Made by a program: the position numbers and the translations under genes
Notes under the pieces: generated by a model
Databases searched by the model: none
What the model saw: the letters and a program-made list of their open reading frames with translations, nothing else
What the model was told of the DNA's origin: nothing
Origin: Fidelibacterota bacterium
GTDB taxonomy: Bacteria; Marinisomatota; Marinisomatia; Marinisomatales; UBA1611
DNA length: 16,079 bases
Direction: 5' to 3'
NCBI GenBank assembly: GCA_002722105.1
Contig: PBKF01000016.1
Location: forward strand, 3,738-19,816
Shown here: positions 955-16,079 of the stretch, piece by piece
Position numbering within the stretch: position 1 is the stretch's first letter
Layout: each line of letters starts with the position of its first letter

Positions 955-998
955 TTTCTATTTTTTTTATGATTATATGATAAAAATAGTTTTATGAG

Positions 999-2207
999 CT
1001 AAAGTATTCTAGTTTCAATATTCATAATAGACTTACTCGCATCATAATTTTTGCATTTTATGATTAGTTTTTTACCGTGACAACTTTTTTTAATCCTAAA
1101 ACCTCCATAAATCTCAGCCTCAATAAAATATATACCCGGACTAAATGCCGTATATTCATATTTGATATTAATCTCATTAAGGCCTTTTTGCTTCAAAGAA
1201 ATATTGTATTCTGAATCAAATACGGCAGATCCTGAATCGTTTAGTATATAAATCCTTAAAGTACTAGGAACCAATTCGATATTATTTGGTATAGAAAAAA
1301 TTAATGTAAGTATAAAACCATCCATTTCACTAATTGTAGTTATTGGATTCCCCATATTATTTTTGATTTTCCAATCAATAAAACCAAATCTTGATATATT
1401 CTTACTTTTTGGTTTAAAACTACGATTCTTATAGACTCTTACTACATCATAAGTATTGCCATATTCTTGAATTTCACCCTTACTCAATAGAATCGATTTT
1501 TCACAGATATTTGGTAATACTCCAAGTCTATGACTGACCATCAAAACAGTTCGCCCTTCATCTGAAATATTTTCCATCTTATCAATACACTTTTCTTGAA
1601 AATTAGCATCACCAACCGCTAATACTTCATCTATCAATAATATATCTGGATTAAGATGTGCAGCTACAGAAAAAGCTAACCTAACACCCATACCACTAGA
1701 ATAACGTTTAACTGGAGTATCAATAAATTTTTCTACACCTGAGAAATCAACAATTTCTTCAAACTTACTATCAATTTCTTTTTTAGTCATACCAAGTATT
1801 GTACCATTAAGATATATATTTTCTCTTCCAGTCAAATCAGGATGAAATCCGGAGCCAACTTCTAAAAGACTTGCTACATTACCATTTAGTTCTATTTGCC
1901 CAAAAGTAGGTTGGCTGATTTGAGCAAGAATTTTTAATAATGTACTTTTCCCAGCACCATTTTCACCAATAATCCCTAACACTTCACCTTGCTTTACTTT
2001 AAAAGAAACATCCTTTAAGGCCCAAATAATATCTTTTTCATCTGTTCCATTTTTAAAATTGCTCAAATTTTTCAAACGATTAAAATTAGAAAAAGGACTT
2101 TTAATTATTGATCCCACTTTTCCAATTAATGAATCCTGCATTTCATCTTTCAGACCTATTCTATAACGCTTTGAAAGGTTATCTATCTTTATTGCAATAT
2201 CAGTCAT
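999..2207 (-). CDS. wzt: Polysaccharide ABC exporter ATPase with C-terminal Wzt-like domain
   Basis: This 402-residue protein powers export of a lipid-linked glycan across the inner membrane together with the adjacent permease. The Walker A motif is GENGAGKS (81-88), the signature YSSGM (169-173), Walker B ILLIDEV (189-195), and the H-loop histidine is in VSHR (about 226). The TGRENIYLNG segment (126-135) is typical of the Wzt/TagH branch. Residues from about 272 to 402 form a beta-rich extension like the Wzt C-terminal domain, which in O9a-type systems recognises the modified end of the glycan. The start chosen is ATG 2207-2205, which overlaps the permease stop as TGATG and so suggests translational coupling. 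A TTG one codon upstream is the alternative. Confidence 0.9.
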   Translation of the reverse strand: MTDIAIKIDNLSKRYRIGLKDEMQDSLIGKVGSIIKSPFSNFNRLKNLSNFKNGTDEKDIIWALKDVSFKVKQGEVLGIIGENGAGKSTLLKILAQISQPTFGQIELNGNVASLLEVGSGFHPDLTGRENIYLNGTILGMTKKEIDSKFEEIVDFSGVEKFIDTPVKRYSSGMGVRLAFSVAAHLNPDILLIDEVLAVGDANFQEKCIDKMENISDEGRTVLMVSHRLGVLPNICEKSILLSKGEIQEYGNTYDVVRVYKNRSFKPKSKNISRFGFIDWKIKNNMGNPITTISEMDGFILTLIFSIPNNIELVPSTLRIYILNDSGSAVFDSEYNISLKQKGLNEINIKYEYTAFSPGIYFIEAEIYGGFRIKKSCHGKKLIIKCKNYDASKSIMNIETRIL

Positions 2208-3059
2208 CAAGCTACATCGGCAAAGATTCTTTCTTTACGTTTAAAATAAAATGCACCACTTATACATAAGATAAATCCAGTTAAAAAACCAAATAGTATA
2301 AATTTTAATGGCATGGGGGTTTGTCCAAGTAATGCGGAACGGAATCCTTCTATTACACCTACCATTGGGTAAAACCCATACCAAAACGTAATTGATTCTC
2401 CGAATTTATCTGTAAGTAATGAAAGAGGCCATACAACCGGTGCAGCATACATCAAAAGTTGAGATATAAAATTAATTCCATGTCTAACATCACGATATTG
2501 AATCGCCATTGCCGATAACCACATACCAATACCATATGAAGTTAAAATCATAATCAAAACCAATAATGGAAGCCAAAGTATATTCAATGTTACGTTGATA
2601 CCATACCATACCATTAGTAAAAAAACAATGCTTAACGCAATGAAAAAATCAATTAGTCCAGCAATAACTGGGGTTAAGGGGATAATGAGCCTGGGAAAAT
2701 AGACCTTAGTAAATATTCCAGCATTTCCTACAAGACTTTGAGTCGATTTCGTCATGGCTGTTGCGAAATAAATCCATGGTACCAGTGCCGTATAAGAAAA
2801 TATCGGGTAGGGTATTCCGTCACTTGGGATTTTAGCTAAATTCCCAAAAATAATTGAAAAAATTATCATGGAAAGTACAGGCCGAATAATTGCCCAGGAA
2901 AATCCAAGAATAGTTTGTTTATACAATACCTTTATTTCTCTTAGAACAAAGAAATAAAGTAAATCCTTATATCTTATTAACTCTGGTAAATTTATGAACT
3001 GCCAGCGTTTATCTGGTGTAATTACAGTTTTAATTTTTGTATTTTTTACTTTTTAACAT
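2207..3059 (-). CDS. wzm: Polysaccharide ABC-2 exporter permease, with an apparent frameshift at codons 2-7
   Basis: Integral membrane partner of the Wzt-like ATPase. The body (YKQTILGFSWAIIRP, then about six hydrophobic segments, ending FYFKRKERIFADVA) is typical of Wzm/TagG ABC-2 permeases. The frame stays open upstream of the TTG at 2926 to 3052 and encodes family-typical residues (TVITPDKRW, ELIRYKDLLYFFVLREIKV), so the gene is longer than a 2926 start implies. No ATG, GTG or TTG lies in that extension. An ATG at 3059-3057, preceded by a fair Shine-Dalgarno (GGTGA, four bases away), is one base out of frame. Removing one A from the A5 or A6 run just after it would give a protein beginning MLKVKNTKIKTV, about 283 residues, a normal length. 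The extra base may be a sequencing error, a real mutation, or a slippage site. Start from an ATT (3022) is less likely. Confidence 0.8.
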
Positions 3060-3099
3060 CTGTTCACCAATATTTAAATCAGAAATTTATATTTTTGAT

Positions 3100-3627
3100 T
3101 TAAATATCAAATATTTTTGTTCCAAGAGTTTGTATAAAAGAATACTCTAAAATCATATCTTCTTTATTATCAATAACCCAATTCATATTATGTTGGCCAC
3201 CAGGGAATGAGTTTTCATCAAAAATACACTCTATATGTTTATGTCCAAGTTCTTTGAATGCAAAATATCTCTTAAATCCATCTAGCCTTTGATATTGGAA
3301 ATTAATATCAAGCCCATTAATCATATTATATTGATATCCACAATAATCTATGTAAGATTGCGATTTAAAGCTTGTAACTAAGATTGGTAATATTTTCTTG
3401 CCGTTATTAATTAATTCTTTTACCATTCTTATTCCCTCTTTATGGTCTTTGCATTCTGTAATAGTCTTTACATCATGATTACAATCAAAGGGATTAATTT
3501 GTTCTATGGGAATTTTCTTGATGCAAATCTCTTTTATTATATGTTTATTTTTTTTAAACCGTCTTAGTTGGTATTCATAAGAAAAATACTTTTTTGACCA
3601 ATTTTGAATAATATTTGTAATAAGCAT
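3100..3627 (-). CDS. Uncharacterised protein with a ParB/sulfiredoxin-fold-like core
   Basis: 175 residues, no signal peptide or membrane segment. The N-terminus is basic (RRFKKNKHIIKE). Residues 39-46 (IPIEQINP) and 112-135 (YQRLDGFKRY, then FAFKELGHKHIECI) match the layout of ParB-like/sulfiredoxin-fold proteins: an entry strand, a D-G-x-x-R turn, a helix and a closing strand. It is too short for, and lacks, the helix-turn-helix of chromosomal ParB, so it is not a segregation protein. Proteins with this fold can hydrolyse or bind nucleotides, but no activity can be claimed. It follows the duplicated-domain gene by 23 bases and precedes wzm by 40, so it is embedded in the polysaccharide operon. 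The call rests on motif resemblance only. Confidence 0.6.
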   Translation of the reverse strand: MLITNIIQNWSKKYFSYEYQLRRFKKNKHIIKEICIKKIPIEQINPFDCNHDVKTITECKDHKEGIRMVKELINNGKKILPILVTSFKSQSYIDYCGYQYNMINGLDINFQYQRLDGFKRYFAFKELGHKHIECIFDENSFPGGQHNMNWVIDNKEDMILEYSFIQTLGTKIFDI

Positions 3628-3650
3628 AATAATCTAAGTCTACTCTTTCT

Positions 3651-4127
3651 TCAGATCCTTCTGGCAAAGATTGATCTAATTATTATCTGCATTATTTTTT
3701 TTATTTTAGTAAATAATAATACTCTTCTTGATTTCTTAATGGACTTACAGAAATTGATAAAATCTTTTTCATTAAACTCTAATCGAATATCAAAATAATG
3801 CAGATGTATTGTACCATTTTCTTGTAACTCAATCTGTATTCTATCTGGAAAATAATCTGGCTTAGTTTGAATATCTATTTTTAATTGTTTTCGTAAATCA
3901 TGTGATTCATTTTCTACGTATCCATTCGATATTTGGTGTTTAAGCTCAATATCGCTCAGTTTAATCAATTCGGCAAAATTATTCCATTCTGGAATGCTAA
4001 ACTCAACCCTAAGATCTCTATGATGTATATGGATGTTTTCACATATGTCTATACACAATCTGGTACTGCATAACCTCTGCGAGCTAGAATTATTATTAAC
4101 AAACAATTTTTTATCTATTATTCCCAT
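3651..4127 (-). CDS. Uncharacterised protein with two copies of an IHxHxxDxRxEF domain
   Basis: 158 residues; I do not recognise a named family. The sequence shows an internal duplication. NIHIHHRDLRVEF (31-43), followed by PEWNNFAELI, matches TIHLHYFDIRLEF (106-118), followed by KDFINFCKSI. Each copy looks like two beta strands carrying H-x-H and D-x-R, then an amphipathic helix. The tail (134-158) is strongly basic and hydrophobic, including IMQIIIRSIFARRI, and could contact a membrane. The ATG start has a good Shine-Dalgarno (GGAG, seven to eight bases upstream), the clearest in the polysaccharide block. Its neighbours are PAPS synthase upstream and the ParB-like gene downstream. Paired histidines could bind metal or a glycan; that is speculation. 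Confidence 0.65.
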   Translation of the reverse strand: MGIIDKKLFVNNNSSSQRLCSTRLCIDICENIHIHHRDLRVEFSIPEWNNFAELIKLSDIELKHQISNGYVENESHDLRKQLKIDIQTKPDYFPDRIQIELQENGTIHLHYFDIRLEFNEKDFINFCKSIKKSRRVLLFTKIKKIMQIIIRSIFARRI

Positions 4128-4254
4128 TAGATATCTCCGATATGAATTAGGTATATGAATACATTTGATGTAATTAAAAAATTAATATTTAAAATAATTT
4201 CGAAGCTTTATTGCTATCTATCTGTACGATTTAACCCAAAATAAAGTTTTTAGG

Positions 4255-5952
4255 TTATTTTATGTATCCCAATTTTTTGATACGAATAATAATTTGATCA
4301 ACTAATTCTTCAGGCGGTGTGCCACTGGAATTAATAACAATCTCCGCTTGTTTGGGTGCTTCATAAGGGTCTGATATTCCGGTAAATTTTTTAATTATGC
4401 CTTTTCTAGCTAATTCATATAGACCTTTCACATCCCGTTCTTCACATTTTTCCAAGGAAGTATTTACATAGATTTCAATATATCCACCCAAATCTGATAT
4501 AAGCGCACGATTTATTCTTCTATCAGCTTCATAGGGAGCTATTGGTGCACAAATAGCAATACCTCCATTTTTTGTAATCTCGCTGGCAACATAGCCAATA
4601 CGCTGAACATTTAATGAACGGTGTTTTTTAGAAAAACCTAATTCACTGGACAAATTTGTACGAACAATGTCACCATCTAAAAGAGTTACAGGGCGACTAC
4701 CTTCTTCCAATAATTTTACCAATAACCCATTGGCAAGAGTTGACTTTCCAGAACCAGATAACCCTGTAAAAAATATTGTAAGCCCTCGCTCAGTTAATGG
4801 CGGGTGTGATAATTCTAGCTCTTGTGCTACTTTTTTATAGGTAAACCATTCAGGAATTCCTCTCCCCTTTTCTAATAACTGTCTTAATTCTGTACCAGAA
4901 ATAGTTTGATATTCAACCTCTTTTTTGATTTCATCAACAGCTTCATAGCGATCTTCTTGCGGTAAAAAAACCATAAACTTGAATGGTACCATTTCAATAC
5001 CAATTTCATCTTGGTACTTTATTAAAAGTTCTTGTGCATCATAAGGGCCATAAAATGCATTACCTTCTTTGTCATTACCGGGACCAGCGTGGTCACGACC
5101 AACAACTAAATGTGTACATCCATAATTTTTTCTGATTAAGGCATGCCATAATGCTTCTCTTGGGCCACCCATTCTCATTGCAAGTGGTAGTAAACTTAGC
5201 ATTACGGAATTTTCAGGGTATTTTTCCATGACATGTTTGTAGCATCTTACTCGCGTGTAATGATCTACATCACCGGGTTTAGTCATACCTACCACAGGAT
5301 GTAATAACAGGTTTGCATTTAGGTCTTTTAGTGCACGTGTGGTCATTTCAACATGAGCACGATGTAATGGATTTCTTGTTTGAAAAGCGACTATTTTTTC
5401 CCATCCATTATCTAAAAAGAAAGATTTTAACTCTTGCGGTGTATGTCTATCATATTGATAATCATAATGGTGCGGGTAAGATATTCCCTCAAGTTTGCCA
5501 CCTAGGTAAACTTGATGACTAATATTGGTTAAATAATTAACAGCTGGATGTGCGACATCATTTGTACCATAAACAATTTTGGCTTCTTTTTCTAAATCGG
5601 GTTTCCATTTATCTGAAATATTTAATACCGCTAATGGAAATCCTTCCTTATCCCGTAACGTTATTTTTTCTTCTCCATTGATATTTTCTGCAAATTCTTC
5701 GGTGATATCTAAAGTAATTGGCATTGGCCATAATGAGCCATCTTGCAAACGCATTTCATATAGAACGGATTCATAATCATTTTGATTCATAAAACCGCTT
5801 AAAGGAGAAAAACCGCCATTTAATAATAACTCCAAATCACATATTTGACGATCAGTCAATTGCCAGGACGGAAATGTATTTGCATCATGTTTTAATTTTG
5901 GTTTTACTTTATAAGGTGCCATTAACGTGGTAACCATTGTATTATCGCTCAT
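4255..5952 (-). CDS. sat-cysC: Bifunctional sulfate adenylyltransferase / adenylylsulfate kinase (PAPS synthase)
   Basis: A 565-residue fusion that turns sulfate and ATP into APS, then phosphorylates APS to PAPS in the cytoplasm. Residues about 1-385 are ATP sulfurylase: QTRNPLHRAH (191-200) carries the nucleotide-binding HxxH, and GRDHAG (285-290) is the second active-site motif. Residues 390-565 are APS kinase: P-loop GLSGSGKST (397-405), LDGDIVR (425-431) and FTGISDPYE (523-531). Both active sites look intact. It sits inside the polysaccharide operon and no reductive sulfate genes are visible, so PAPS may feed sulfation of the glycan; no sulfotransferase lies in the window. General sulfur assimilation is the alternative. 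A weak promoter (TTACAA, 18-base spacer, TACAAT; 6003-5974) lies upstream. The nearest AGGA is about 14 bases from the ATG, too far for a standard Shine-Dalgarno. Confidence 0.95.
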   Translation of the reverse strand: MSDNTMVTTLMAPYKVKPKLKHDANTFPSWQLTDRQICDLELLLNGGFSPLSGFMNQNDYESVLYEMRLQDGSLWPMPITLDITEEFAENINGEEKITLRDKEGFPLAVLNISDKWKPDLEKEAKIVYGTNDVAHPAVNYLTNISHQVYLGGKLEGISYPHHYDYQYDRHTPQELKSFFLDNGWEKIVAFQTRNPLHRAHVEMTTRALKDLNANLLLHPVVGMTKPGDVDHYTRVRCYKHVMEKYPENSVMLSLLPLAMRMGGPREALWHALIRKNYGCTHLVVGRDHAGPGNDKEGNAFYGPYDAQELLIKYQDEIGIEMVPFKFMVFLPQEDRYEAVDEIKKEVEYQTISGTELRQLLEKGRGIPEWFTYKKVAQELELSHPPLTERGLTIFFTGLSGSGKSTLANGLLVKLLEEGSRPVTLLDGDIVRTNLSSELGFSKKHRSLNVQRIGYVASEITKNGGIAICAPIAPYEADRRINRALISDLGGYIEIYVNTSLEKCEERDVKGLYELARKGIIKKFTGISDPYEAPKQAEIVINSSGTPPEELVDQIIIRIKKLGYIK

Positions 5953-6057
5953 GTAAAAATTATGTTCCTATATATTGTATTTTTTTAAAGAAAAAGTTTG
6001 TAATGGATATTATTAAAAGAAAATAATTTAATTTTTATAAAATAATAACAGCTAAAG

Positions 6058-8418
6058 CTAAGCAGACTGAGTTTCCGTATCACTTCTATAGTAATGATAA
6101 TATTGATAATAATAATAGTATGAGCCATAACTGTTTTTATGGGTTACAGCATTTAGAATAATACCACCAAGCGGTGCATCTACATTCCTTAATGATGTGA
6201 TGGTATGGTCAAATGCTTTTTTATCTGTTTGTCCTACCTTCACTACCATAACGATTTGATCTATTTCTTTAGAAACCATGGTGGCATCCGTTACAGCAAC
6301 TAGTGGCGGACTGTCTAGCAATATCATATCCCAATCTTTCTCTAACCTTTTTAAAAGATCAGACATCCGTTTGGATCCTAATAACTCTGATGGATTAGGA
6401 GGAATAATTCCAGATGGAACAACGTAAAGATTCTCAATACTAGTCGATTGAACCAAAGAATTAAAATCATCTTTTGCACCTGAAAGGTAATCTGTGATAC
6501 CAGGTTCTTTATTCAAATCTAAAACTTTATGAACAACTGGTCGCCTCAAGTCTGTATCAATTAAAATAGTTTTTTTACCAAGATTGGCATAGGTAATAGC
6601 TAAATTTGCTACGGTAGTTGTTTTACCTTCACCGGGCCCAGCACTTGAAATAAGAATCGATTTTATCTTTTTATCAGCAGATGTGTACAGAAGACTAGTT
6701 CTTAGACTTCTGTAAGCTTCAGAGACTGGTGATCTTGGGTCTTCTCTTGTAATTAGTCTTCTTTTTAATCCATGACTAGTTTTGGATCTTGATAGTAGAC
6801 CGCTTTTAAAAGAAAAAAACCTTTGTTTATTGACGATTTCTTTACCAATTGAAGGAATGATTCCCAAAACAGATAAACTTTTTCTTTCTATATCATGAGG
6901 TGTTTTGATGGTATTATCTAAAAACTCAAGTCCGAACGCTAAGAAAATTCCTAATCCTAAACCAAAAATTAAACCCATAAGTATAGTCCGCTTATGATTT
7001 TGTCCAGTACTACCAGGTAAACGTGAGTAATCAACTATTTGTACTTTACCAACCTGAGAAGCAACGTTGATTTTTGCTTCTTCCAGCTTTTGTCTAAGCA
7101 AAGAATAGTTTTGATTCAACACTATATTATTTCGTTGTAAACGAGAGAATTCAAGTTGTTTAGATGGTAAAAGGTCTAGTTTTTCTTCATATAATGATAA
7201 TAAACGTTCAGATTCTTTCTTTTTTAAACGGTAACCCATTATTTCAGAGTCTAGCGAAATAAGTTCGGTTACTATATCCTGTCTTGCTTTCAATGGGTCC
7301 TGAACAATGATACCTTGTTGTGTTAATTCTTTTACTTTTGTATTTAATTGTGATTTAAGCCCCTGCATTTTTGACTTTAATTCCATAACTGCACCGTGTT
7401 CTTCACCATATTGTGCGATATTTTGGATTAAATTAGCTTCAAGTTGACTGATTTCATTTCTAAGTGATATTACTTGAATATTTATATTATTCATCAGCTG
7501 TTCAGCAAGGTTTTTTTCATCTTGTGATAACTTAGATTTTAAATGATTGTATTTTTCTTTTCGTATATTAATCTCTGAAGCTGTATTATATATCTCAGTT
7601 TCTACACTACTTATCTGACCAGTTATTGCTATAGCCTTACCATCCAGATCATACATACGTTCCTGTTTTTTAAATTGAGTAAGAGCTTTTTCTGAATCCC
7701 TAAGCTTTTTTTCCTGGTTTTTGACCAATTCATCAAGAAACTGAACTGAATTATTCGCTTTCTCACCACTCCATTTTTGATCTAAATCCTGATATACATC
7801 TGCAACTGTATTTACAATTAATTGGGCTTCCATCGGCCACACACTGGTATAAGAAATATCAATTATATTTGTACCTTGACGGTGATTCACCTTTAATCTT
7901 GCAATTAAATTCTCTGCAAATCTTTCTCCAATTTTATCTGAGTATTCTTCATTATATCTAAGAGGCAAATCTGTGCTGGGATCATATAGCCCAAGAGTTA
8001 GAATTTCTTTGGTGAATTGTCGTAATCTTTTACCTCGTGGGTAAAATGGATATGAACCAAATAGAGCCAGGTTATTTTTCTTATACCGCCAAATCTCTTT
8101 TATAGTTGCTTTGGCTACACTTCTGGATCGGATAAGTTGCATTTCATTTGTCATTCTGTTGCGATCCCTGTTTCCTGTAATATCCATAATCATACCAGCA
8201 CCAGGTTTATCCTGCACAACAACTGTAGCTATGGCAGTATAAGATGGTGGAATGGTCATTACATGATAAATAGAATAACCTAAACCCAAAAGACCAAATA
8301 ATAGTATTTTTTTTAGATGAAGACGTAGAATAAAAAGGTAGTCTCTAAAAGTTAACTCATTATCCTGCCAATTCGGCATTTGCCCATTTGATTGTAATCC
8401 TGATTGGCGATTAATCAT
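6058..8418 (-). CDS. wzc: Polysaccharide chain-length protein / tyrosine autokinase (Wzc-type BY-kinase)
   Basis: 786-residue inner-membrane protein that combines a Wzz/GumC-type co-polymerase with a cytoplasmic bacterial tyrosine kinase. Transmembrane segments are at about 35-55 and 478-497. Between them is a periplasmic region with long coiled coils (about 220-450). The kinase has EAYRSLR (567-573), matching the ExxRxxR oligomerisation motif; Walker A SAGPGEGKTTT (592-602); Walker A' ILIDTDLRRP (618-627); and Walker B MILLDSPP (698-705). The C-terminus carries ten tyrosines within 14 residues (764-777, SYGSYYYYYQYYHYY), the autophosphorylation cluster. The start overlaps the SLBB gene stop as ATGA, implying coupled translation. 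The phosphatase two genes upstream should reverse its phosphorylation. Wzc is used as a family label. Confidence 0.95.
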   Translation of the reverse strand: MINRQSGLQSNGQMPNWQDNELTFRDYLFILRLHLKKILLFGLLGLGYSIYHVMTIPPSYTAIATVVVQDKPGAGMIMDITGNRDRNRMTNEMQLIRSRSVAKATIKEIWRYKKNNLALFGSYPFYPRGKRLRQFTKEILTLGLYDPSTDLPLRYNEEYSDKIGERFAENLIARLKVNHRQGTNIIDISYTSVWPMEAQLIVNTVADVYQDLDQKWSGEKANNSVQFLDELVKNQEKKLRDSEKALTQFKKQERMYDLDGKAIAITGQISSVETEIYNTASEINIRKEKYNHLKSKLSQDEKNLAEQLMNNINIQVISLRNEISQLEANLIQNIAQYGEEHGAVMELKSKMQGLKSQLNTKVKELTQQGIIVQDPLKARQDIVTELISLDSEIMGYRLKKKESERLLSLYEEKLDLLPSKQLEFSRLQRNNIVLNQNYSLLRQKLEEAKINVASQVGKVQIVDYSRLPGSTGQNHKRTILMGLIFGLGLGIFLAFGLEFLDNTIKTPHDIERKSLSVLGIIPSIGKEIVNKQRFFSFKSGLLSRSKTSHGLKRRLITREDPRSPVSEAYRSLRTSLLYTSADKKIKSILISSAGPGEGKTTTVANLAITYANLGKKTILIDTDLRRPVVHKVLDLNKEPGITDYLSGAKDDFNSLVQSTSIENLYVVPSGIIPPNPSELLGSKRMSDLLKRLEKDWDMILLDSPPLVAVTDATMVSKEIDQIVMVVKVGQTDKKAFDHTITSLRNVDAPLGGIILNAVTHKNSYGSYYYYYQYYHYYRSDTETQSA

Positions 8419-8903
8419 AATCTGGATACCTGAAGATAAATACTTATCAAGCTTAAAACTGTATTAATTGCTCCTATCTGCTCTAGAAAATATGCTACAG
8501 GCTTTTTAGGAATAATAATTGTATCATTTGGTTTAATTTTAATGAAGTTAGAACGATCACCTGATTGAACATAATTATTAAGATCTATAACATAAACTAA
8601 CTTGCCATTTTCATCGGGTAATTCCCTGTAAATACTTGTCTTTTTTAAATTGGCACCGGGCTGCGGGCCGCCAACAATTGAAATAAGCGTAGCTAAATCA
8701 ATTCCTTCATAAACTAGATGATTTCCAGCATTTCCAACTTCACCCCACACGTTTACGTGCATCATTATGTTTCCATTATTATCAGTTAAATATCTTTCGC
8801 TAGATATTTGATAATCTGAAAATGTAGGTATTTTCACTAAATCATCTTGAGCAAAAATGAGATTAAAAACTAAACAGGTGATACAATATTTAATTTTATT
8901 CAT
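8415..8903 (-). CDS. Small periplasmic SLBB-domain polysaccharide export protein
   Basis: 162 residues from ATG 8903-8901; a TTG two codons earlier (8909) is possible but would only lengthen the signal peptide. Residues 1-18 form a secretion signal (cleavage probably after IFA, before QDD); the cysteines at 7 and 10 do not make a lipobox. Residues about 49-105 (VNVWGEVGNAGNHLV, LATLISIVGGP) form one SLBB domain like those of Wza-family proteins. IKPNDTIIIPKK (122-133) is the characteristic end of such a module, followed by a hydrophobic tail (137-158). The N-terminal polysaccharide-export domain and outer-membrane helix of full Wza are absent, since Wza is more than twice as long. It probably works as a periplasmic adaptor to the BY-kinase, with the outer-membrane channel encoded elsewhere. 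Confidence 0.8.
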   Translation of the reverse strand: MNKIKYCITCLVFNLIFAQDDLVKIPTFSDYQISSERYLTDNNGNIMMHVNVWGEVGNAGNHLVYEGIDLATLISIVGGPQPGANLKKTSIYRELPDENGKLVYVIDLNNYVQSGDRSNFIKIKPNDTIIIPKKPVAYFLEQIGAINTVLSLISIYLQVSRL

Positions 8904-8909
8904 ACCCAA

Positions 8910-9704
8910 TCAAATTAAACCAATTCTATCCTTTATGCGAGAAAAGAAATTAGGTTTAACTTCATCACTGTATTCAAAATCAAACTGGATTGGGGAACCA
9001 TCAATTACTGCTTGGGGATTTTCATTCACTAAAATACTTGTATCGTAATCTACCCATTTTTGAATTAATTCTATCGATTCCTTTAAACAAAAATTCCTTT
9101 TCCTATTGTTATGGGAATCAGAACCTAATATTTGGCACCATCCGTTTTTTAAAATTTTTTCAGAAGCTTTTTTAGAGTCTGCTCCTAAATATCCAAGTGG
9201 ACTACCTGCATCCACTTGAATTATGCAACCGGCAGCTAACCATTCCACCACAATATTTACATTATCCTGTACAGGTTTATATCTTTCCGGGTGAGCTATA
9301 ATCGGTATTACACCTGCCATTTTTAAATTAAACAATTGCGTTTTATAATTTTTTGGGAATTGATGAGTTTGAAACTCTATCAGCATGTATTTACCATGGT
9401 TAAATGTTGATAACGGATCATCTTTAATTTTAAGGAGATTTGGCAAAAAAAAGACTTCGGCACCAAAATGGAGGTTTATTTTAATCCCGTTATTATCCAA
9501 CTCTCTCTGCAACGACTCTACTTCTCTTTTAATCCTTTTATATGAGATCTCCTCAGTTTCTACCTTTGGGTGTTGATAATGTACTGTATTTACAACATCT
9601 GTAATGCCTTGGGACTCAGCAAATGCTAACATCTGTAGGGACATTCCCAATGATTTGGATCCATCATCTACTTTTGGTAATACATGATTATGGAAATCAA
9701 TCAA
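8910..9704 (-). CDS. cpsB: PHP-family protein-tyrosine phosphatase (CpsB/CapC/YwqE type)
   Basis: 264-residue metal-dependent phosphatase expected to dephosphorylate the tyrosine-rich tail of the BY-kinase two genes downstream. PHP metal ligands are visible: DFHNH (3-7), DDG (13-15), GAE (81-83), HPERY (138-142) and GSDSH (194-198). The second motif reads NTVHYQHP (39-46) where many family members have TPH; the histidine is kept. The start is TTG 9704-9702: the frame is closed by a stop at 9725-9723, and the protein then begins MIDFHNH, exactly the expected family N-terminus. It is the first gene of the polysaccharide block, and its stop lies six bases before the SLBB ATG. Confidence 0.9.
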   Translation of the reverse strand: MIDFHNHVLPKVDDGSKSLGMSLQMLAFAESQGITDVVNTVHYQHPKVETEEISYKRIKREVESLQRELDNNGIKINLHFGAEVFFLPNLLKIKDDPLSTFNHGKYMLIEFQTHQFPKNYKTQLFNLKMAGVIPIIAHPERYKPVQDNVNIVVEWLAAGCIIQVDAGSPLGYLGADSKKASEKILKNGWCQILGSDSHNNRKRNFCLKESIELIQKWVDYDTSILVNENPQAVIDGSPIQFDFEYSDEVKPNFFSRIKDRIGLI

Positions 9705-9846
9705 AAGACTATCTTGAATGCATTAATTTTTTTATTGTATTTTTCATCATATTTTTGATATGGCTCCGCCTAGTCAGTCCCAATGGTAATGATAAGGCTA
9801 TTTTATTTTTAGCTGAATCCAGCCAATTTATTTTAAAGTGACCTAT
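9705..9846 (-). promoter_or_regulatory. Leader and candidate promoter of the polysaccharide operon, with an ops-like motif
   Basis: This 142-base gap lies between the GHKL/STAS gene and cpsB. On the minus strand it holds TTGGCT (9826-9821), a 15-base spacer and TAAAAT (9805-9800), a weak sigma70-like pair. About 40 bases downstream is GGCGGAGCCAT (minus strand, around 9771-9761), which resembles the RfaH ops core GGCGGTAGCNT with one base missing. Because a NusG paralogue is encoded nearby, the leader is a candidate target, but the match is imperfect and UpxY-type factors are not known to need ops. Confidence 0.3.
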
Positions 9847-10857
9847 TTAGGTTAATCGGTGCATAGCCCGAGACATCAAAACATCCACAATTTTGTTAGA
9901 ATTAATCCATTTGATATCTGCGAATTGATTCTTTTGCTTGGTTTTACGAACCAATTCATCTGCAAATGCAGGGCCTATCAATTCAATATTTTGGAAATCA
10001 AATTCGATTTTACTTATATTTCTAATATTATGTAATAGGCTTTGCGCCTGTATCCTTGAATTCACCTGTTCATTCTTTTCACGTATCAAATTGACAGGAA
10101 TACGAACCATATTATATTCTTTTTCAAAAATTTGATGAAATACTTTCTGACAAGTTCTTTTAGAATTGGTTTTAATCTCTAAATGGATGCGAGTACCTTT
10201 TTGCTGTGAAGATGCAAATACATTCCACTCATTCTGTTTGTTTTGAAAAACAAGTCTAATACCAGAAGCATCAATTTTTACTTTATCGAAGAGATGAATT
10301 ACCGTCATTAATTCATCACCTGAATGATTTTCCGGATCTGTAGTAATATGACCTTTTGCAATTTCTACTGCAGCTATTTTTGTATTATTCAGACTAAGTG
10401 ATTGATTCAATTTTTCAAAAATACCAATACCATTATCATTAAGAACAAAATGAATTTCTGTTGGCGAAATAAAAAGTTTATAATTTAGTTTAGTGGCTTG
10501 TGCGTGATCCATTGCGTTTACCAAAATAGCCCTGAAAGAATATTCACAAATCTCAAAAATATTTTTTCTTACAATCTTTAGATTTGGCAGAATCTGGGAT
10601 TTCAATATTGCATAAGCAGATGTGGGTTCATTAAGATTTATGGTTTTTGTAAAGTTTACAATTGGCTTTAATTCATAGAATCTATCCCTAGTCTTTCCAT
10701 GCGCAACTACACGTTCTTCGTTAATAAGGGTATGCATATGTTTCAAAATAGCTTGCCGAGACAAACCAAATTTCCTAATTGATGCCTTGATAATATCCTT
10801 CTGATGGCCAGATAGGTTTTCAAGGATAAATTGTTTTATTTGTTCAGATGAATCCAT
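9847..10857 (-). CDS. Winged-helix / GHKL ATPase / STAS-like DUF4325 regulator
   Basis: 336-residue soluble protein with three parts. Residues about 5-65 form a winged helix-turn-helix (RKFGLSRQAILKHMHTLI) that could bind DNA. Residues about 95-230 form a GHKL ATPase: N-box ILVNAMDHA (111-119), G1 box NDNGIGI (140-146), and GTRIHLEI (221-228) as the last box. Residues about 265-325 are STAS-like (IEFDFQNIELIGPAFADEL), the DUF4325 signature. There is no phospho-acceptor or sensor domain, so it looks more like an anti-sigma-kinase-type switch fused to its partner than a two-component kinase. It lies upstream of the polysaccharide genes on the same strand and is divergent from the NusG paralogue, which suggests regulation of that locus. 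ATG start; no Shine-Dalgarno. Target and ligand are unknown. Confidence 0.85.
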   Translation of the reverse strand: MDSSEQIKQFILENLSGHQKDIIKASIRKFGLSRQAILKHMHTLINEERVVAHGKTRDRFYELKPIVNFTKTINLNEPTSAYAILKSQILPNLKIVRKNIFEICEYSFRAILVNAMDHAQATKLNYKLFISPTEIHFVLNDNGIGIFEKLNQSLSLNNTKIAAVEIAKGHITTDPENHSGDELMTVIHLFDKVKIDASGIRLVFQNKQNEWNVFASSQQKGTRIHLEIKTNSKRTCQKVFHQIFEKEYNMVRIPVNLIREKNEQVNSRIQAQSLLHNIRNISKIEFDFQNIELIGPAFADELVRKTKQKNQFADIKWINSNKIVDVLMSRAMHRLT

Positions 10858-11028: not shown

Positions 11029-11538
11029 TTGAATATTATCCAAAATAATGGTTTAAAGTGGATTGCTATTTATACAAAACCACGTCATGAAAAAAGTGTA
11101 GAGAAGGAACTATTAAAAAAGGGTTTTGAAGTATACTTACCTCTTTTAAAAGAACGTCGCAAATGGAGTGATCGTAAAAAGTGGGTAGAATTTCCATTGT
11201 TTCGATCATATATCTTTGTAAGAACACAGGAAAAAAATACTTTGTTTATCTTACAAACTATTGGAGTGGTAAGATTAGTGAAGTTTGGAAATAAAGTTGC
11301 CATAGTCCAAGACGAAAGTATCAGAGCAATAAAACTTATGATTGAAGGTGGATATAATCCAAAAGCAACTGATTACTTTTTGGTTGGTGATAGAGTAGTA
11401 GTTCAAGATGGTCCACTTAAAGGGTTAAGTGGTGAAGTGGCTAGAGTTGACAACCACGATAGGCTTCTTGTCCGGATAGAGGCCATTCAGCATTCAGTCT
11501 CCATACAAATCGATAGAGCATTCCTTAAATTAAATTAG
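11029..11538 (+). CDS. NusG paralogue, UpxY/RfaH-type transcription antiterminator
   Basis: 169-residue cytoplasmic protein expected to bind RNA polymerase and promote elongation through a long operon. The N-terminal NGN domain (about 9-105) includes WIAIYTKPRHEKSVEKEL, the family signature, and KKWVEFPLFRSYIFVR. A KOW domain follows (about 118-165: VGDRVVVQDGPLKGLSGEV). At this size and with the WSDRKKWVE element it resembles UpxY factors of Bacteroides capsule loci rather than housekeeping NusG. The start is TTG 11029, with AGGG seven bases upstream; no earlier usable start is in frame. UpxY genes are usually first in the operon they control. Here the gene points away from the polysaccharide genes, so action in trans, or on a locus elsewhere, must be considered. 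Confidence 0.85.
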   Translation: MNIIQNNGLKWIAIYTKPRHEKSVEKELLKKGFEVYLPLLKERRKWSDRKKWVEFPLFRSYIFVRTQEKNTLFILQTIGVVRLVKFGNKVAIVQDESIRAIKLMIEGGYNPKATDYFLVGDRVVVQDGPLKGLSGEVARVDNHDRLLVRIEAIQHSVSIQIDRAFLKLN

Positions 11539-11594
11539 ACTATATATTATATTTTAGACTAATATAAAGCATCGATAAATCAAGCCTTTTATAG

Positions 11595-11687
11595 CGGGAA
11601 CGCCTGGGAATCGAACCCAGCTCTCCGCTCTATACGGAGACAACGGCTTTGAAGGCCGCGGAGAGCACCAGCCACTCAATCATTCCC
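11595..11687 (-). tRNA. selC: tRNA-Sec (anticodon UCA, selenocysteine)
   Basis: A 93-base gene read leftward. The acceptor GGGAATG pairs with CGTTCCC (seven pairs, one T-G), with an eighth layer A8 opposite G. The D-arm can form six pairs, with one bulged T and the loop TGGT. The anticodon stem GCGGC/GCCGT encloses the loop CTTCAAA, giving anticodon UCA. The variable arm has six pairs (TCTCCG/CGGAGA, seven-base loop). The T-arm is CTGGG-TTCGATT-CCCAG, and the discriminator is G. CCA is not encoded. The six-pair D-stem with tetraloop, long variable arm, UCA anticodon and G73 are hallmarks of bacterial tRNA-Sec. A suppressor serine-type tRNA is the alternative. It starts 32 bases after the SPOR gene stop, so it is probably cut from that operon's transcript. 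Confidence 0.88.
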
Positions 11688-11719: not shown

Positions 11720-12505
11720 CTACTTCATATAGTTTTTTGGTCTATATAATACCCTGTAGTCAATACCTAGTTTTTTCTTAATTACAATTCCAACTCTTTC
11801 TGCTTCAGATTTATTTTTATAACGCACTACTCGAACTGCATGGAACTTACTGCCATTTATCTCAACAGGGACTATCTCTACATTATAGCCAATTTGAGAC
11901 ACTTGTAGTTTCAAACGTTTTGCATTCCCAAAATTTCCAAAAGCACCAATTTGGACTATATACGGCTTTGGCTCCTCCATAAGTTTCGACTTAAAATTCA
12001 TTGGCTTTGTTGGCTGATTTCTTGTAGATAATCCATACCCGTTAACATTTAAATCCGGGAACATACCTTGATATATTCCAACGTAATATCTTGCAGAATC
12101 TTCTTCTCCAACAGCTTTGAATGAGCTTACTGTAAGATCTAATACCCTCTGAATATCTGGATAACGTGGATAACTTCGAGGTATTTGACAAAGCTGGCGT
12201 GCCGCTTGGGTATACAATCCACGTGCATAAAAATATTCCCCTATTTTCATAGCCGCAGCAGGAGAATATTTTGATTTAGGAAATTTTTCAATTATACTGC
12301 TATAAATTTCCAAGGATTTCATTCCATCCATAGTTAGGAGCCCCTGTAAATACAATACACCAGGGTCATTGGGGTATTTGGAGATTAGTTCTGGTAGATT
12401 CTCATTCACACCATCTTTCTGTCCATCGTGTAGTAAAGATAAATACATGTCCACATTTTGAGCTAGCAAAAATAAAGGGAATAAATAAAAGGTCACCTTA
12501 ATCAT
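11720..12505 (-). CDS. Secreted TPR-like protein with C-terminal SPOR domain
   Basis: 261 residues. A signal peptide covers about 1-15 (VTFYLFPLFLLA, then QN). Residues about 20-150 are helical repeats of TPR character (FPKSKYSPAAAMKIGEYFYARGLYTQAARQL). Then comes a linker, and a SPOR domain at about 181-253 (PYIVQIGAFGNFGNAKRLKLQ ending at YRVL), with the typical Q-I-G-A-F start. SPOR domains bind glycan strands stripped of stem peptides, so a periplasmic, peptidoglycan-linked role is likely, often at division sites. The ATG overlaps the lapB stop by eight bases, so translation is probably coupled. tRNA-Sec follows after 32 bases. No enzymatic domain is present. Confidence 0.85.
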   Translation of the reverse strand: MIKVTFYLFPLFLLAQNVDMYLSLLHDGQKDGVNENLPELISKYPNDPGVLYLQGLLTMDGMKSLEIYSSIIEKFPKSKYSPAAAMKIGEYFYARGLYTQAARQLCQIPRSYPRYPDIQRVLDLTVSSFKAVGEEDSARYYVGIYQGMFPDLNVNGYGLSTRNQPTKPMNFKSKLMEEPKPYIVQIGAFGNFGNAKRLKLQVSQIGYNVEIVPVEINGSKFHAVRVVRYKNKSEAERVGIVIKKKLGIDYRVLYRPKNYMK

Positions 12506-13556
12506 TCTTACTATTGGATAATTTGCCTAAAATTGAATCAATTTGGTGAGAAAGTTCTACTGGAGTTGAAGTGGTAAGAGAAAGTTTTAATTTAATGAGT
12601 TCACCGCGAACATCATCATCACTTTTACTCATAGCATCTTCGACTAATGCTAAAGCAGCATTATCTTCTCCCTTTTCTTCTAGCACATTAGCTAATCGAA
12701 TAATTGCTTCAAAATTAGATGAATCAGTTTCTAAGATTCTCCTGTAAAAGTTTTCAACCTCGCTATAACGACCCAAATCAAATAATGCAGATTCGATTTT
12801 TGTAAAGATATTTGCACAATTTTTAATGTCCCTCATTGCAAATGCTTCCCAATTTTCCACAGCTTTTACTAGATCTCTTCTTTGTTCATATACATTTCCA
12901 AGATACCGATAGGGTAAACCATAATCGGGGCATGATTTAATAGCTTTTTGGAAGTAGGCTTTTGCTTCATCTAGTAAACTATTTTTTAATTTTTCTAGTC
13001 CTTTGTAGACCTTAAACCTGGCAAGTTCCTCTTCATTATATTTACCTTTAATCTTTTGAATTTGTTTTGTCCAACTGACCGCCATATCCCATTTTTGTTC
13101 TTTTTCAGCAATACCAACTAAAAATTGTAATGCCCATATATTTCGTTTTTCGATGTTAAGAATTTGTTCTGCTTCACGACTTGCTTTAGAGTATTGGTTA
13201 ATCTGCTCATAATCCAAAGCCAATGATTGATGTATATCCACTTTTAAGTCTGTAGATAGATTAGGCCGAACAGTTAAAGATTGGTGAATTTTTGTTGCCT
13301 GGTGAGGATGATCATCTCTGAGAATATTTCCTAATTGTAAATATGCACGAATATGATTAGAATCCTGTTTCACAACATCACGCAAATGACGAATGGCTGT
13401 ATTCCTATCTCCCTTAATCATGGCATTTAATGCATCAGTAAAAAGAGAGTCTGATTTTGGTTTCCGATCAGACTTATGAAAATAAAAATAAAATACTAAT
13501 CCTGCCCCTACCGCAATTCCCAGAGCAAGATATAAAAATAAAAATTCCAAATCCAA
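12498..13556 (-). CDS. lapB: LapB/YciM-like TPR membrane protein lacking the rubredoxin domain
   Basis: 352 residues: one N-terminal membrane anchor (about 3-26), then TPR repeats through most of the protein. The stretch ALNAMIKGDRNTAIRHL, AYLQLGNILRD, KIHQSL and ALDYEQINQYSKASREAE follows E. coli LapB closely in layout. In E. coli, LapB works with FtsH to control LpxC and so lipopolysaccharide level. The E. coli protein ends in a rubredoxin-like four-cysteine domain. Here the C-terminus stops at KLSNSKND with no CxxC pairs, and only two cysteines occur in the protein. The start is TTG 13556-13554 with GGAG four bases upstream, so the gene overlaps lapA by 49 bases. The preceding lapA homologue supports the assignment. 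Confidence 0.8.
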   Translation of the reverse strand: MDLEFLFLYLALGIAVGAGLVFYFYFHKSDRKPKSDSLFTDALNAMIKGDRNTAIRHLRDVVKQDSNHIRAYLQLGNILRDDHPHQATKIHQSLTVRPNLSTDLKVDIHQSLALDYEQINQYSKASREAEQILNIEKRNIWALQFLVGIAEKEQKWDMAVSWTKQIQKIKGKYNEEELARFKVYKGLEKLKNSLLDEAKAYFQKAIKSCPDYGLPYRYLGNVYEQRRDLVKAVENWEAFAMRDIKNCANIFTKIESALFDLGRYSEVENFYRRILETDSSNFEAIIRLANVLEEKGEDNAALALVEDAMSKSDDDVRGELIKLKLSLTTSTPVELSHQIDSILGKLSNSKND

Positions 13557-13870
13557 TATTCTCCATCCTCTATATCGTAATTATCATCAATAGCAACATT
13601 TCTAAGGTTATTTAACTCATCCATTAGCTGTTGATTTTTATTTTGGAGACTTTTCATATGAGTCTTATAGGAAAAAATGACGAAAACAGAAGCAAGAAAC
13701 CCAGCAATTACACCAAACAATGTAGTAACCAGAAGTACTACATTAAGATAAGACCCTTGAATAGTATAATTAAAAAAATGTATATCTACACGTTCAACAG
13801 AATTCTGAGTCATAAAGACTATGATAATCAGATTAAATAGAATTAGGAGGAAAATTTTTAAAAGTTTCAT
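13508..13870 (-). CDS. lapA: LapA-domain (DUF1049/YciS-like) inner-membrane protein
   Basis: 120 residues with two membrane segments (about 4-22 and 40-68) around a short loop containing TQNSVERVDIHFF, the characteristic LapA pattern. After the second helix comes a short coiled coil (about 72-92) and an acidic tail. The order lapA then lapB matches E. coli yciS-yciM, where LapA assists LapB in lipopolysaccharide assembly. The ATG overlaps the miaB stop by one base (TAATG). The last 15 codons (WIWNFYFYILLWELR) lie within the start of lapB in another frame, so they are probably shaped by the lapB coding need rather than conserved. Confidence 0.85.
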   Translation of the reverse strand: MKLLKIFLLILFNLIIIVFMTQNSVERVDIHFFNYTIQGSYLNVVLLVTTLFGVIAGFLASVFVIFSYKTHMKSLQNKNQQLMDELNNLRNVAIDDNYDIEDGEYWIWNFYFYILLWELR

Positions 13871-15189
13871 TAGGCTGCCTCGGCTTGCTTTTTTAAATGT
13901 CCACGTAAAGAGATACCTTTTGCTTCTGTTATCTGTATCCGAACCATATCCTGAATTTGTGCATCTTCTTTGTTAAATATCACCCATTTATTTGAATCTG
14001 TACGTCCTGCCCAGTCACTGGCTGAGCGTTTTGATTCTTTTTCTATAAGGACAGTTTGGATAGTACCCACAAAACTAAGATTCCTCTGCAGAGTGTGTTT
14101 TTTCTGAAGATTAATTACCTGTTCTAATCTGGCCTGTTTCACCTTTTCTGCAACTTGATCTTCATACTCTGTAGCTTTAGTACCCGGACGAGGTGAATAT
14201 TTAAAATTGAACGCTGAATCAAATTTTACTTCTTCCATAACTTCCAAAGTCTCTTGGAATTCATATTCTGTCTCACCTGGAAAGCCTACGATAATATCCG
14301 TTGACAAGCCACTCTGTGGCAAAATTTCACGTATTCGATGTGCAAGCTTTATAAAGTGATCTTTAGTATACGTTCTATTCATACGATTAAGAATTCTATC
14401 ACTCCCCGCCTGTAATGGTAAATGAACATAATTACAAATATTATCATGTGCTGCCATTGTAAATAATAATTCATCAGTTATATCCTGAGGATGTGGCGAT
14501 GTATACCGGATTCTTTTTAACCCAGATATTTTGGCTACCTGTTTCAACAAATCATGAAATTTCTTACCGTTATGATTATAGGAATTCACATTTTGACCTA
14601 AAAGTGTTATTTCAGTAAACCCATCCTGAACCGCTTGAGACGCTTCTGCAACTATCCCTTCGATACTTCGACTTCTTTCCCTACCACGTGTAAAGGGGAC
14701 TATACAAAATGTGCAAAATTTATCACATCCACGCATAATAGAAATCCAGGCATTGATTCCTTCCTTTCTACTTGGGAAAAGATCATCATAAACTTCAAAT
14801 CGGGACAAAGTTGTATCAACAATACCATGCTTCTCAGTTTTTCGGTTTAATAATTCCGGTAGTTTTCGGTAGGAATCAGGGCCAAGAATGATATCAATAT
14901 ATGGTTTATTTTCCAGTAGATCATGTTTCAAGCTTTGTGCCATGCATCCTAGTACACCAATAATTGTGTCTGGCTTCTTTTTTTTAATAGTATCATAACG
15001 TCCTAATTGAGAATAGATTTTTTCTTCAGCATGTTCTCTTATTGCACATGTATTTACAAATATTGCATTTGCATGACGAATGTCAGCCGCTGGAAAATAC
15101 CCCTGATTCTGCAGAAGTGATTCTACTATTTCAGAATCAGCTACATTCATCTGGCAGCCGTATGTTTCAATAAAATACGTCTTATTCAT
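13870..15189 (-). CDS. miaB: tRNA-2-methylthio-N6-dimethylallyladenosine synthase
   Basis: 439-residue radical-SAM methylthiotransferase that converts i6A37 to ms2i6A37 in tRNAs reading codons beginning with U. The N-terminal UPF0004 domain holds the three cluster cysteines C12 (YGCQMN), C48 (NTCAIRE) and C82 (GCMAQ). The radical-SAM motif CDKFCTFC gives C155, C159 and C162, and GRERSRS follows, as in MiaB. A TRAM domain (about 375-437) ends the protein. All six cysteines are present and the length is normal. It lies between the M23 peptidase (22 bases upstream) and lapA (one-base overlap), so it belongs to the same unit. YGCQMN and NTCAIRE favour MiaB over MtaB or RimO. Confidence 0.96.
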   Translation of the reverse strand: MNKTYFIETYGCQMNVADSEIVESLLQNQGYFPAADIRHANAIFVNTCAIREHAEEKIYSQLGRYDTIKKKKPDTIIGVLGCMAQSLKHDLLENKPYIDIILGPDSYRKLPELLNRKTEKHGIVDTTLSRFEVYDDLFPSRKEGINAWISIMRGCDKFCTFCIVPFTRGRERSRSIEGIVAEASQAVQDGFTEITLLGQNVNSYNHNGKKFHDLLKQVAKISGLKRIRYTSPHPQDITDELLFTMAAHDNICNYVHLPLQAGSDRILNRMNRTYTKDHFIKLAHRIREILPQSGLSTDIIVGFPGETEYEFQETLEVMEEVKFDSAFNFKYSPRPGTKATEYEDQVAEKVKQARLEQVINLQKKHTLQRNLSFVGTIQTVLIEKESKRSASDWAGRTDSNKWVIFNKEDAQIQDMVRIQITEAKGISLRGHLKKQAEAA

Positions 15190-15211: not shown

Positions 15212-16079
15212 TTATTTTATGGGTTCAGAGAAAAAGTAATCAAGCGGATTTTGCGGTGTCCCGTAATAATGAATCTCATAATGCAAATGAGGTGCCGTAG
15301 AACGGCCAGTATTCCCGGTTAAACCAATTATATCACCACGCTTAACCCTCTGACCATATTTGACCTTAAACTTAGAAAGGTGTGCATATAGAGTTGAATA
15401 TCCTGAACCATGATCTATTTTAATATGATTACCAAATCCCCCTACGTAATATGCACGTTTTATAACCCCATCTGCAGGTGCATAAATTGGTGTCCCTACC
15501 GGGACTGTAATATCTTGTCCTTGGTGAAACCTACGAACATTGTCAAGTGGATCTTGACGATAACCATAACTTGAATTAAGATAACCACCGTCTACTGGTC
15601 GAATAGAAGGTATTTTTGCTATCCTAGAAATATCTTCTTGTACTTTTTCATATATTGACTCATAACTTGTTAGTTCAAGATTCACTTTTCGAGAAAGACG
15701 CTCCAAATCCATTTCCAAAATGGATAATTCCTTGTTCACTGCTGGTGCAAGATTATCTGAAAAGACCTTTAATTCCAGATTACGACCCCCAATTCCTAAT
15801 TTACGGATATCTTGATCAATCTCTGGCATGCCAGCATATGTTCTAACTGCTTTATCCTTTTTCTCTATTTCATTTATCTGCTGATCTATGTGCTTTAATC
15901 TATCTTGAAGTAAAGTTAGGTTACTTGCAACATTCCTATAATTAGATCGGAATTCAGATAGCCTTCTTTCATAAAAATAATTGCTTAGAAAATCAGCAGT
16001 AAGAAAAAGAAAAGCCAGCATGACTGATAATGTTACAGTCATGAGAGAAAGAGCTTGATTCTGATTAAGGTGCCACTGG
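15212..16079 (-). CDS. Membrane-anchored M23 (LytM) peptidase, 5' end outside the window
   Basis: The frame stays open from the ATG at 16042 to the right edge, adding at least twelve residues (QWHLNQNQALSL) before that methionine, so the true start is probably beyond the window. A membrane anchor (TVTLSVMLAFLFLTADFL) is followed by a periplasmic coiled coil (about 25-140 from the internal Met). An M23 domain follows, with HQGQD (173-177), the HxxxD zinc ligands, and HLHYE (252-256), the HxH pair. The active site looks intact, so it should cut peptidoglycan cross-links or act as an amidase activator. The layout resembles NlpD/MepM-like envelope peptidases. It leads the miaB-lapA-lapB-SPOR unit. 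Confidence 0.88.
   Translation of the reverse strand, partial: QWHLNQNQALSLMTVTLSVMLAFLFLTADFLSNYFYERRLSEFRSNYRNVASNLTLLQDRLKHIDQQINEIEKKDKAVRTYAGMPEIDQDIRKLGIGGRNLELKVFSDNLAPAVNKELSILEMDLERLSRKVNLELTSYESIYEKVQEDISRIAKIPSIRPVDGGYLNSSYGYRQDPLDNVRRFHQGQDITVPVGTPIYAPADGVIKRAYYVGGFGNHIKIDHGSGYSTLYAHLSKFKVKYGQRVKRGDIIGLTGNTGRSTAPHLHYEIHYYGTPQNPLDYFFSEPIK

Follow-up and report, generated by a model that had tools for sequence, protein, structure and literature searches.

In its canonical 8/5 form, known from E. coli and A. aeolicus (PDB 3W3S, cited in PMC7609411), bacterial tRNA-Sec has a UCA anticodon, a G73, a long variable arm, six D-stem pairs with a four-base loop, and five T-stem pairs. A second form is found in Clostridiales, whose tRNA-Sec carries a D-stem bulge at position 13a and a 12-bp acceptor/T stem (PMC5330540); D-stem bulges in tRNA-Sec are thus not new as such. 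The selC gene analyzed here lies in a stretch of 16,079 nucleotides from a Fidelibacterota bacterium (the window) and shares all of the listed canonical features, but the 5' strand of its D-stem is one nucleotide longer, and its eighth acceptor layer is A-G instead of a pair. A bulged D-stem and a weakened acceptor/T stack are common to this gene and to the Clostridiales tRNA-Sec as there described. In contrast to the latter, the bulge in the window gene is located between pairs 3 and 4 (12a by our own count in the Clostridiales numbering), all 13 layers are kept with a mismatch in place of a missing nucleotide, and no sel gene stands beside selC. No description of this D-stem form for the phylum was found among open-licence papers.

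Table. Features of selC and its neighboring genes in the window
Feature	Position	Strand	Evidence and remarks
selC, tRNA-Sec (UCA)	11595..11687	-	ARAGORN; RF01852, 62.8 bits; fold
Anticodon UCA	11652-11650	-	ARAGORN
D arm	11661..11677	-	5' strand 11677-11671 (7 nt), UGGU loop 11670-11667, 3' strand 11666-11661 (6 nt)
Bulged U between D-stem pairs 3 and 4	11674	-	Covariance model, RNAfold; extra 5'-strand nucleotide in 121/150 sequences
A8, eighth acceptor layer	11680	-	Sequence; faces G at 11603
G facing A8 (A-G mismatch)	11603	-	Sequence
NusG-family gene	11029..11538	+	Pfam; convergent with selC, at the edge of the polysaccharide locus
SPOR-domain protein gene	11720..12505	-	Pfam SPOR; 5' of selC, gap 32 nt, probable co-transcript
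TPR protein gene	12498..13556	-	Pfam; upstream of selC in 139/150 loci
LapA-domain protein gene	13508..13870	-	Pfam
miaB-like gene (tRNA modification)	13870..15189	-	UPF0004, Radical_SAM and TRAM domains
M23 peptidase gene	15212..16042	-	Pfam; first gene of the cluster within the window

An earlier note on this DNA, made from the letters alone, had identified the gene as tRNA-Sec, and ARAGORN and the Rfam covariance model RF01852 concurred. ARAGORN placed the gene, the sole tRNA called in the window, at 11594-11687. RF01852 matched end to end at 11596-11687, without the discriminator, with 62.8 bits against a gathering cut-off of 47 bits, and this covariance model gave a Sec identity, not a non-Sec one. 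On the minus strand, base 1 of the gene is at 11687 and the discriminator G at 11595; CCA is not encoded, and the 3' end reads G-C-T-A. The D-stem, GAG(U)GGC / UGGU / GCUCUC, comprises six pairs, a four-base loop, and one bulged U. The same D arm was obtained by RNAfold (-40.6 kcal/mol; z -2.87; equaled or bettered by 2 of 200 shuffles), whose unconstrained fold consisted of seven acceptor pairs, the six-pair D-stem with its bulged U, a five-pair anticodon stem, a variable arm as long as seven pairs, and a five-pair T-stem. The acceptor/T stack (8+5) therefore has 13 layers, of which 12 are standard pairs and layer 8 is A-G. Both peculiarities read in the earlier note, the bulged-U D-stem and the A-G eighth pair, were recovered from the sequence, RNAfold, and the covariance model. 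With its score, UCA anticodon, D-stem and loop, G73, and long variable arm, the gene agrees with bacterial tRNA-Sec as modeled by RF01852. In the window, UGA also serves as an ordinary stop (4 of the 16 ORFs of at least 90 aa end with it), none of these 16 ORFs matches a sel family in Pfam, both as the earlier note had stated, and no UGA-interrupted selenoprotein gene was recognized. A 21-nt piece of the 3' part of selC, used to look for an attachment site, had no second copy in the window with up to three mismatches.

The selenocysteine machinery was examined in ten relatives, selected by the gene at 13870..15189, which we take to be miaB. Its product, 79% identical to that of locus L001 (Candidatus Neomarinimicrobiota), places the window in this phylum; it is 59-67% identical to those of L002-L009 and L044 (Marinimicrobia / Neomarinimicrobiota). 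A tRNA-Sec gene lies 2.1-2.4 kb behind miaB in nine of the ten loci, and in the tenth, L004, the contig ends 2.2 kb behind miaB. The selA gene was present in all ten genomes, and selB was above the cut-off in nine, G006 having only a fragment at a contig end that scored below it (70 bits). The selA and selB matches lay no more than 75 nt apart in seven of the nine, and the distance was about 1.4 kb in G007 and G008. Nine of the ten genomes have selD, each with exactly one in-frame TGA whose site is fixed (S[HS]G[AS]G-U-A[CS]K in six, KAAG-U-AGK in three) and is presumably the catalytic Sec/Cys site of SelD; by this in-frame TGA, SelD is itself a selenoprotein in the relatives. Because selA, selB, and a UGA-interrupted selD occur in its relatives, the lineage of the window very likely recodes UGA. 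The claim of the earlier note that the organism makes selenoproteins thus holds by way of these genomes (selA in 10/10, selB in 9/10, selD in 9/10). Across a phylum sample of 245 genomes, selC was detected in 148 (E 2e-9) and selA in 177 (E 1e-20). Both were present in 132 genomes, selC alone in 16, selA alone in 45, and neither in 52, an association with a Fisher p of 3e-13 when kinship is ignored.

The 45 of the 177 selA-bearing genomes in which selC was missing include G140-G146, G148, and G149, while G147 has selC and no selA. When 40 of the 45 were searched with RF01852 at relaxed settings, 18 places were obtained, all of them tRNA-Ser by ARAGORN. A loop pattern, which recovered selC in three of three positive control genomes, found no tRNA-Sec over all 45, the other matches being judged by eye. 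The SPOR gene that precedes selC was searched for in 37 genomes, namely, 35 of the 45 together with G147 and G160, both of which bear selC. It matched at 1e-8 in 14 genomes, strongly in nine, and no strong match was obtained in 28 of the 35 selC-negative genomes. In G145 and G004 the contig breaks inside the SPOR gene, and in G078 the contig ends 623 nt behind it, with 233 N in the locus. Four of the seven selC-negative genomes with a strong SPOR match have 393 to 1497 nt of sequence after the gene in which selC is absent (G149, 405 nt; G161, 393 nt; G163 and G164, about 1.5 kb). Two arrangements show that the position of selC can change: between the SPOR gene and selC of G147 lie at least two sugar-metabolism genes plus a third ORF, and in G160, selC lies 41 nt behind a tRNA-Arg gene on a different contig from the SPOR gene. 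In our view, the missing selC genes are a mixture of assembly gaps and relocation, and in some genomes there may be true loss or an unrecognized tRNA-Sec. A separate class of genomes lacking selC was considered and dropped; gaps and relocation explain part of the absences. A "missing" selC in metagenome-assembled genomes should not be read as biology, since two selC-negative relatives break inside the very gene that precedes selC. In candidate phylum KSB1, the presence of selABD without selC has been interpreted biologically (PMC9012183).

The D-stem was then compared across the phylum in 150 selC sequences, comprising the window and 149 loci from 147 of the 148 selC-bearing genomes (G203 and second copies in G179 and G136 were left out). 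ARAGORN called tRNA-Sec in all 150. By length and pairing, the D-arm strands were 7/6 in 121 sequences and 6/6 in 27, and two were not parsed. Among the 121 bulged sequences, 47 D arms are distinct. With the fourth base of the 5' strand skipped, the best of the seven possible skips, 97.5% of the pairs were standard and 40 of the 47 arms fully paired; in a few arms, pairing improves when the bulge is shifted one or two places toward the stem base. When the 3' strands were re-dealt in 2,000 shuffles, at most 18 of the 47 arms were fully paired (mean, 7.3; kinship ignored). Because 40 arms exceed this shuffle maximum of 18, the D-stem appears to have been kept while its letters changed and the extra nucleotide to have been inherited. 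The fourth base itself is U in 21, A in 18, C in 6, and G in 2 of the distinct arms. The discriminator G, the five T-stem pairs, and acceptor pairs 1-7 are all standard in the 149 parsed sequences (1 of the 150 was not parsed). On a tree of the SPOR protein built from 139 of the 143 SPOR rows, the bulge changes three times. Judged from these comparisons, the D-stem bulge appears as an inherited trait of the group and not as an error. Since the Neomarinimicrobiota D arm keeps six pairs and a four-base loop, the simplest reading would be that the bulge is tolerated.

The eighth acceptor layer behaves similarly. Among the 149 parsed phylum sequences it is A-G in 78, T-A in 28, A-A in 26, G-A in 8, C-G in 5, C-T in 3, and C-A in 1, i.e., standard in 33 and nonstandard in 116. 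A nonstandard layer 8 is widespread in the phylum and appears to be inherited. This trait also changes three times on the SPOR-protein tree. Jointly, 113 phylum sequences have both the bulge and the mismatch, 24 have neither, 8 have the bulge only, and 3 have the mismatch only; one further sequence (L228) has a paired layer 8 and an unparsed D arm. The earlier note had presented both features as departures from the E. coli model; the departures are real, but they were given too much weight, as both are common to most selC genes of the phylum.

Outside the phylum, 20 genomes were reached through the MiaB list, and the eight with selC were each represented by one locus, the second copy of a Binatia genome being set aside. 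In that class, two tRNA-Sec-like genes about 1 kb apart were observed (L332 and L336), the second with 81 nt and a shortened variable arm. Six of the eight loci have 7/6 D arms: L329 (Gemmatimonadota), L330 and L331 (Latescibacteria), L333 and L335 (Deltaproteobacteria), and L334 (Paraliomyxa). They share the seven-nucleotide 5' strand with the window, and the bulge has the same place in L330, L331, and L333; the arm of L335 reaches only five pairs. Unlike the window, the six have no SPOR neighbor, and CCA is encoded in L329, L330, L331, and L333. Two larger sets were also examined. In the phylum of G261 (Chelativorans), selC matched in 54 of 398 genomes, and 3 of the 50 parsed loci (53 examined) were bulged. 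In the phylum of G257 (Acidobacteriota), selC matched in 177 of 297 genomes and 87 loci were examined; none of the 82 parsed had a bulge in sound register. In both sets, 7/6 rows with only five or six of the seven acceptor pairs were discounted as cases in which ARAGORN had begun one base early; the six such rows in the first set were rechecked, and the two in the second were judged by eye from the sequences. The bulge therefore seems partly recurrent outside the phylum.

Three other explanations of the window gene were weighed. That a tRNA-Ser or another long-arm tRNA was misread as selC is hardly credible: tRNA-Ser genes of the relatives do reach 49 bits with RF01852, but the window gene combines 62.8 bits with a UCA anticodon, a six-pair D-stem with a UGGU loop, and G73, and ARAGORN separates the two types in the relatives. 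It is also very improbable that the gene is a decaying pseudogene, with damage as the source of the bulge and of the A-G layer, in an organism that no longer uses selenocysteine. The unpaired layer 8, the bulged D-stem, and the selA-bearing relatives that show no selC would fit such decay. However, the bulge recurs in 121 of 150 sequences and the nonstandard layer 8 in 116 of 149, the stems stay paired while their bases change, and the relatives have sel genes, including the UGA-interrupted selD. The window gene is thus almost certainly a genuine, functional selC, an ordinary gene with a mildly novel anatomy.

A different proposal is a mechanistic coupling of the bulge with the weak eighth layer, giving a re-registered tRNA-Sec that is read by matching SelA and SelB. 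The joint counts above, in which the two traits go together, favor coupling, and so do the Clostridiales, where tRNA-Sec with a 12-bp acceptor/T stem also has a D-stem bulge (PMC5330540). Nevertheless, the mismatch occurs without the bulge in 52 of the 82 parsed sequences of the G257 phylum (main class), where nonstandard layers are likewise common, and the bulge occurs with a paired layer in L333, L334, and L335. Coupling is unproven because each trait changes only three times on the SPOR tree, which yields at most three independent pairs, too few for a test. We consider it rather unlikely and retain the reading of a tolerated bulge.

The window gene had been described as the end of an envelope operon, and it does close an envelope-type cluster, running in the same direction 32 nt behind the SPOR gene. 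A SPOR gene on the same strand within 2 kb upstream was found in 143 of the 150 phylum loci. The gap between its stop and selC has a median of 8 nt, does not exceed 135 nt in 140 of the 143, and is only 3-8 nt in 66. Among the loci without a SPOR gene, L171 has just 14 nt of upstream sequence and is not judgeable, the genomes of L133 and L135 have selA about 0.3 kb from selC on the same contig, and L152, L159, and L169 have a tRNA-Arg (CCG) gene upstream at 8, 41, and 418 nt, respectively. Small ORFs resembling a HigA/HigB pair were noticed by eye in L169. With a profile built from 36 of the 143, no SPOR neighbor was detected in any of the 69 selC loci examined outside the phylum. In nine of the 143 loci (L248-L254, L256, and L258, from genomes between G212 and G225), the last 8 nt of the SPOR gene are shared with selC. 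There, the UGA stop of the SPOR gene is formed by bases 6-8 of selC, and its last two codons, W-E, lie inside the tRNA. An RNase P cut at base 1 would consequently deprive the SPOR mRNA of its stop codon in these nine loci. This tight and sometimes overlapping placement at the end of an envelope operon is the most novel element of the locus.

A search of the window for terminators around selC found none. A promoter-like match before the gene, at 11718-11690, was rejected because it would start transcription inside the tRNA, and the seven promoter-like matches in the region are at chance level (4.4 in shuffles; standard deviation, 2.1). The lone match before selC is thus poorly placed and within chance. 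The gene would most likely be transcribed by read-through of the M23-miaB-lapA-TPR-SPOR cluster. A bolder idea is that the supply of selC is tied to the envelope operon, the tRNA being excised from the SPOR mRNA at its 3' end at a level set by translation of the envelope genes. We regard this idea as unlikely. If it were true, a terminating ribosome and RNase P would compete for the same RNA in the 66 loci with gaps of 3-8 nt, and in the nine overlapping loci the tRNA that decodes UGA would hold the UGA stop of its neighbor within its acceptor stem.

On its other side, selC borders polysaccharide genes in some members of the phylum. In the window, a polysaccharide export and biosynthesis locus, whose NusG-family gene adjoins selC, was observed at 304-10857; it contains an ABC-2 transporter, an ABC ATPase, a Wzz/AAA protein, an SLBB-like protein, CpsB/CapC, and a methyltransferase. 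In the sequence examined around selC, reaching up to 1.5 kb behind it, a relative of the NusG-family gene was found in the window only (1 of 150); L001 has a look-alike 1.85 kb behind its selC. In L003 a polysaccharide-biosynthesis gene is 100 nt behind selC, in G147 sugar-modifying genes sit between the SPOR gene and selC, and L002, L007, L008, and L044 have other genes behind selC. Within the locus, a fused ATP sulfurylase-APS kinase gene was seen at 4255-5952, and the protein at 9847-10857 has a C-terminal DUF4325 (STAS-like) domain and, by eye, a middle resembling a histidine-kinase ATPase; L001 has an apparent relative of it at 14296-14910, also by eye. At 8907-8912 a UGA is all that separates the CpsB frame from the SLBB-like frame, the two being in register; this UGA is unlikely to be a Sec codon. 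A selenocysteine fusion of CpsB and SLBB across this stop (8910-8912) was rejected, as L001 has TAA there. L001 also has a nickel superoxide dismutase gene, convergent with its selC, at 11754-12245.

The identity of the gene, its conservation, pairing, and neighbors, and the presence of sel genes in relatives were shown by the analysis. From general pathway knowledge, we infer how selC would be expressed, processed, charged, used with SECIS elements, and made to function in this organism. The tRNA would be cut out of the cluster transcript, CCA would be added, and SerRS would charge it with serine. SelA would then turn the serine into selenocysteine with selenophosphate from SelD, and SelB would deliver the tRNA at UGA codons marked by SECIS hairpins. 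In this molecule, the extra D-stem nucleotide would be a tolerated, inherited bulge around which six pairs and a four-base loop are kept, and the A-G eighth layer would be a non-Watson-Crick step within an otherwise 13-layer acceptor/T stack. Selenocysteine machinery is widespread in a large uncultured marine phylum (148 of the 245 genomes with selC, 177 with selA), and the tRNA-Sec of this phylum appears to tolerate a bulge in the arm that SelA reads. The bulge may therefore serve as a natural test of how strictly SelA needs a six-pair D-stem.
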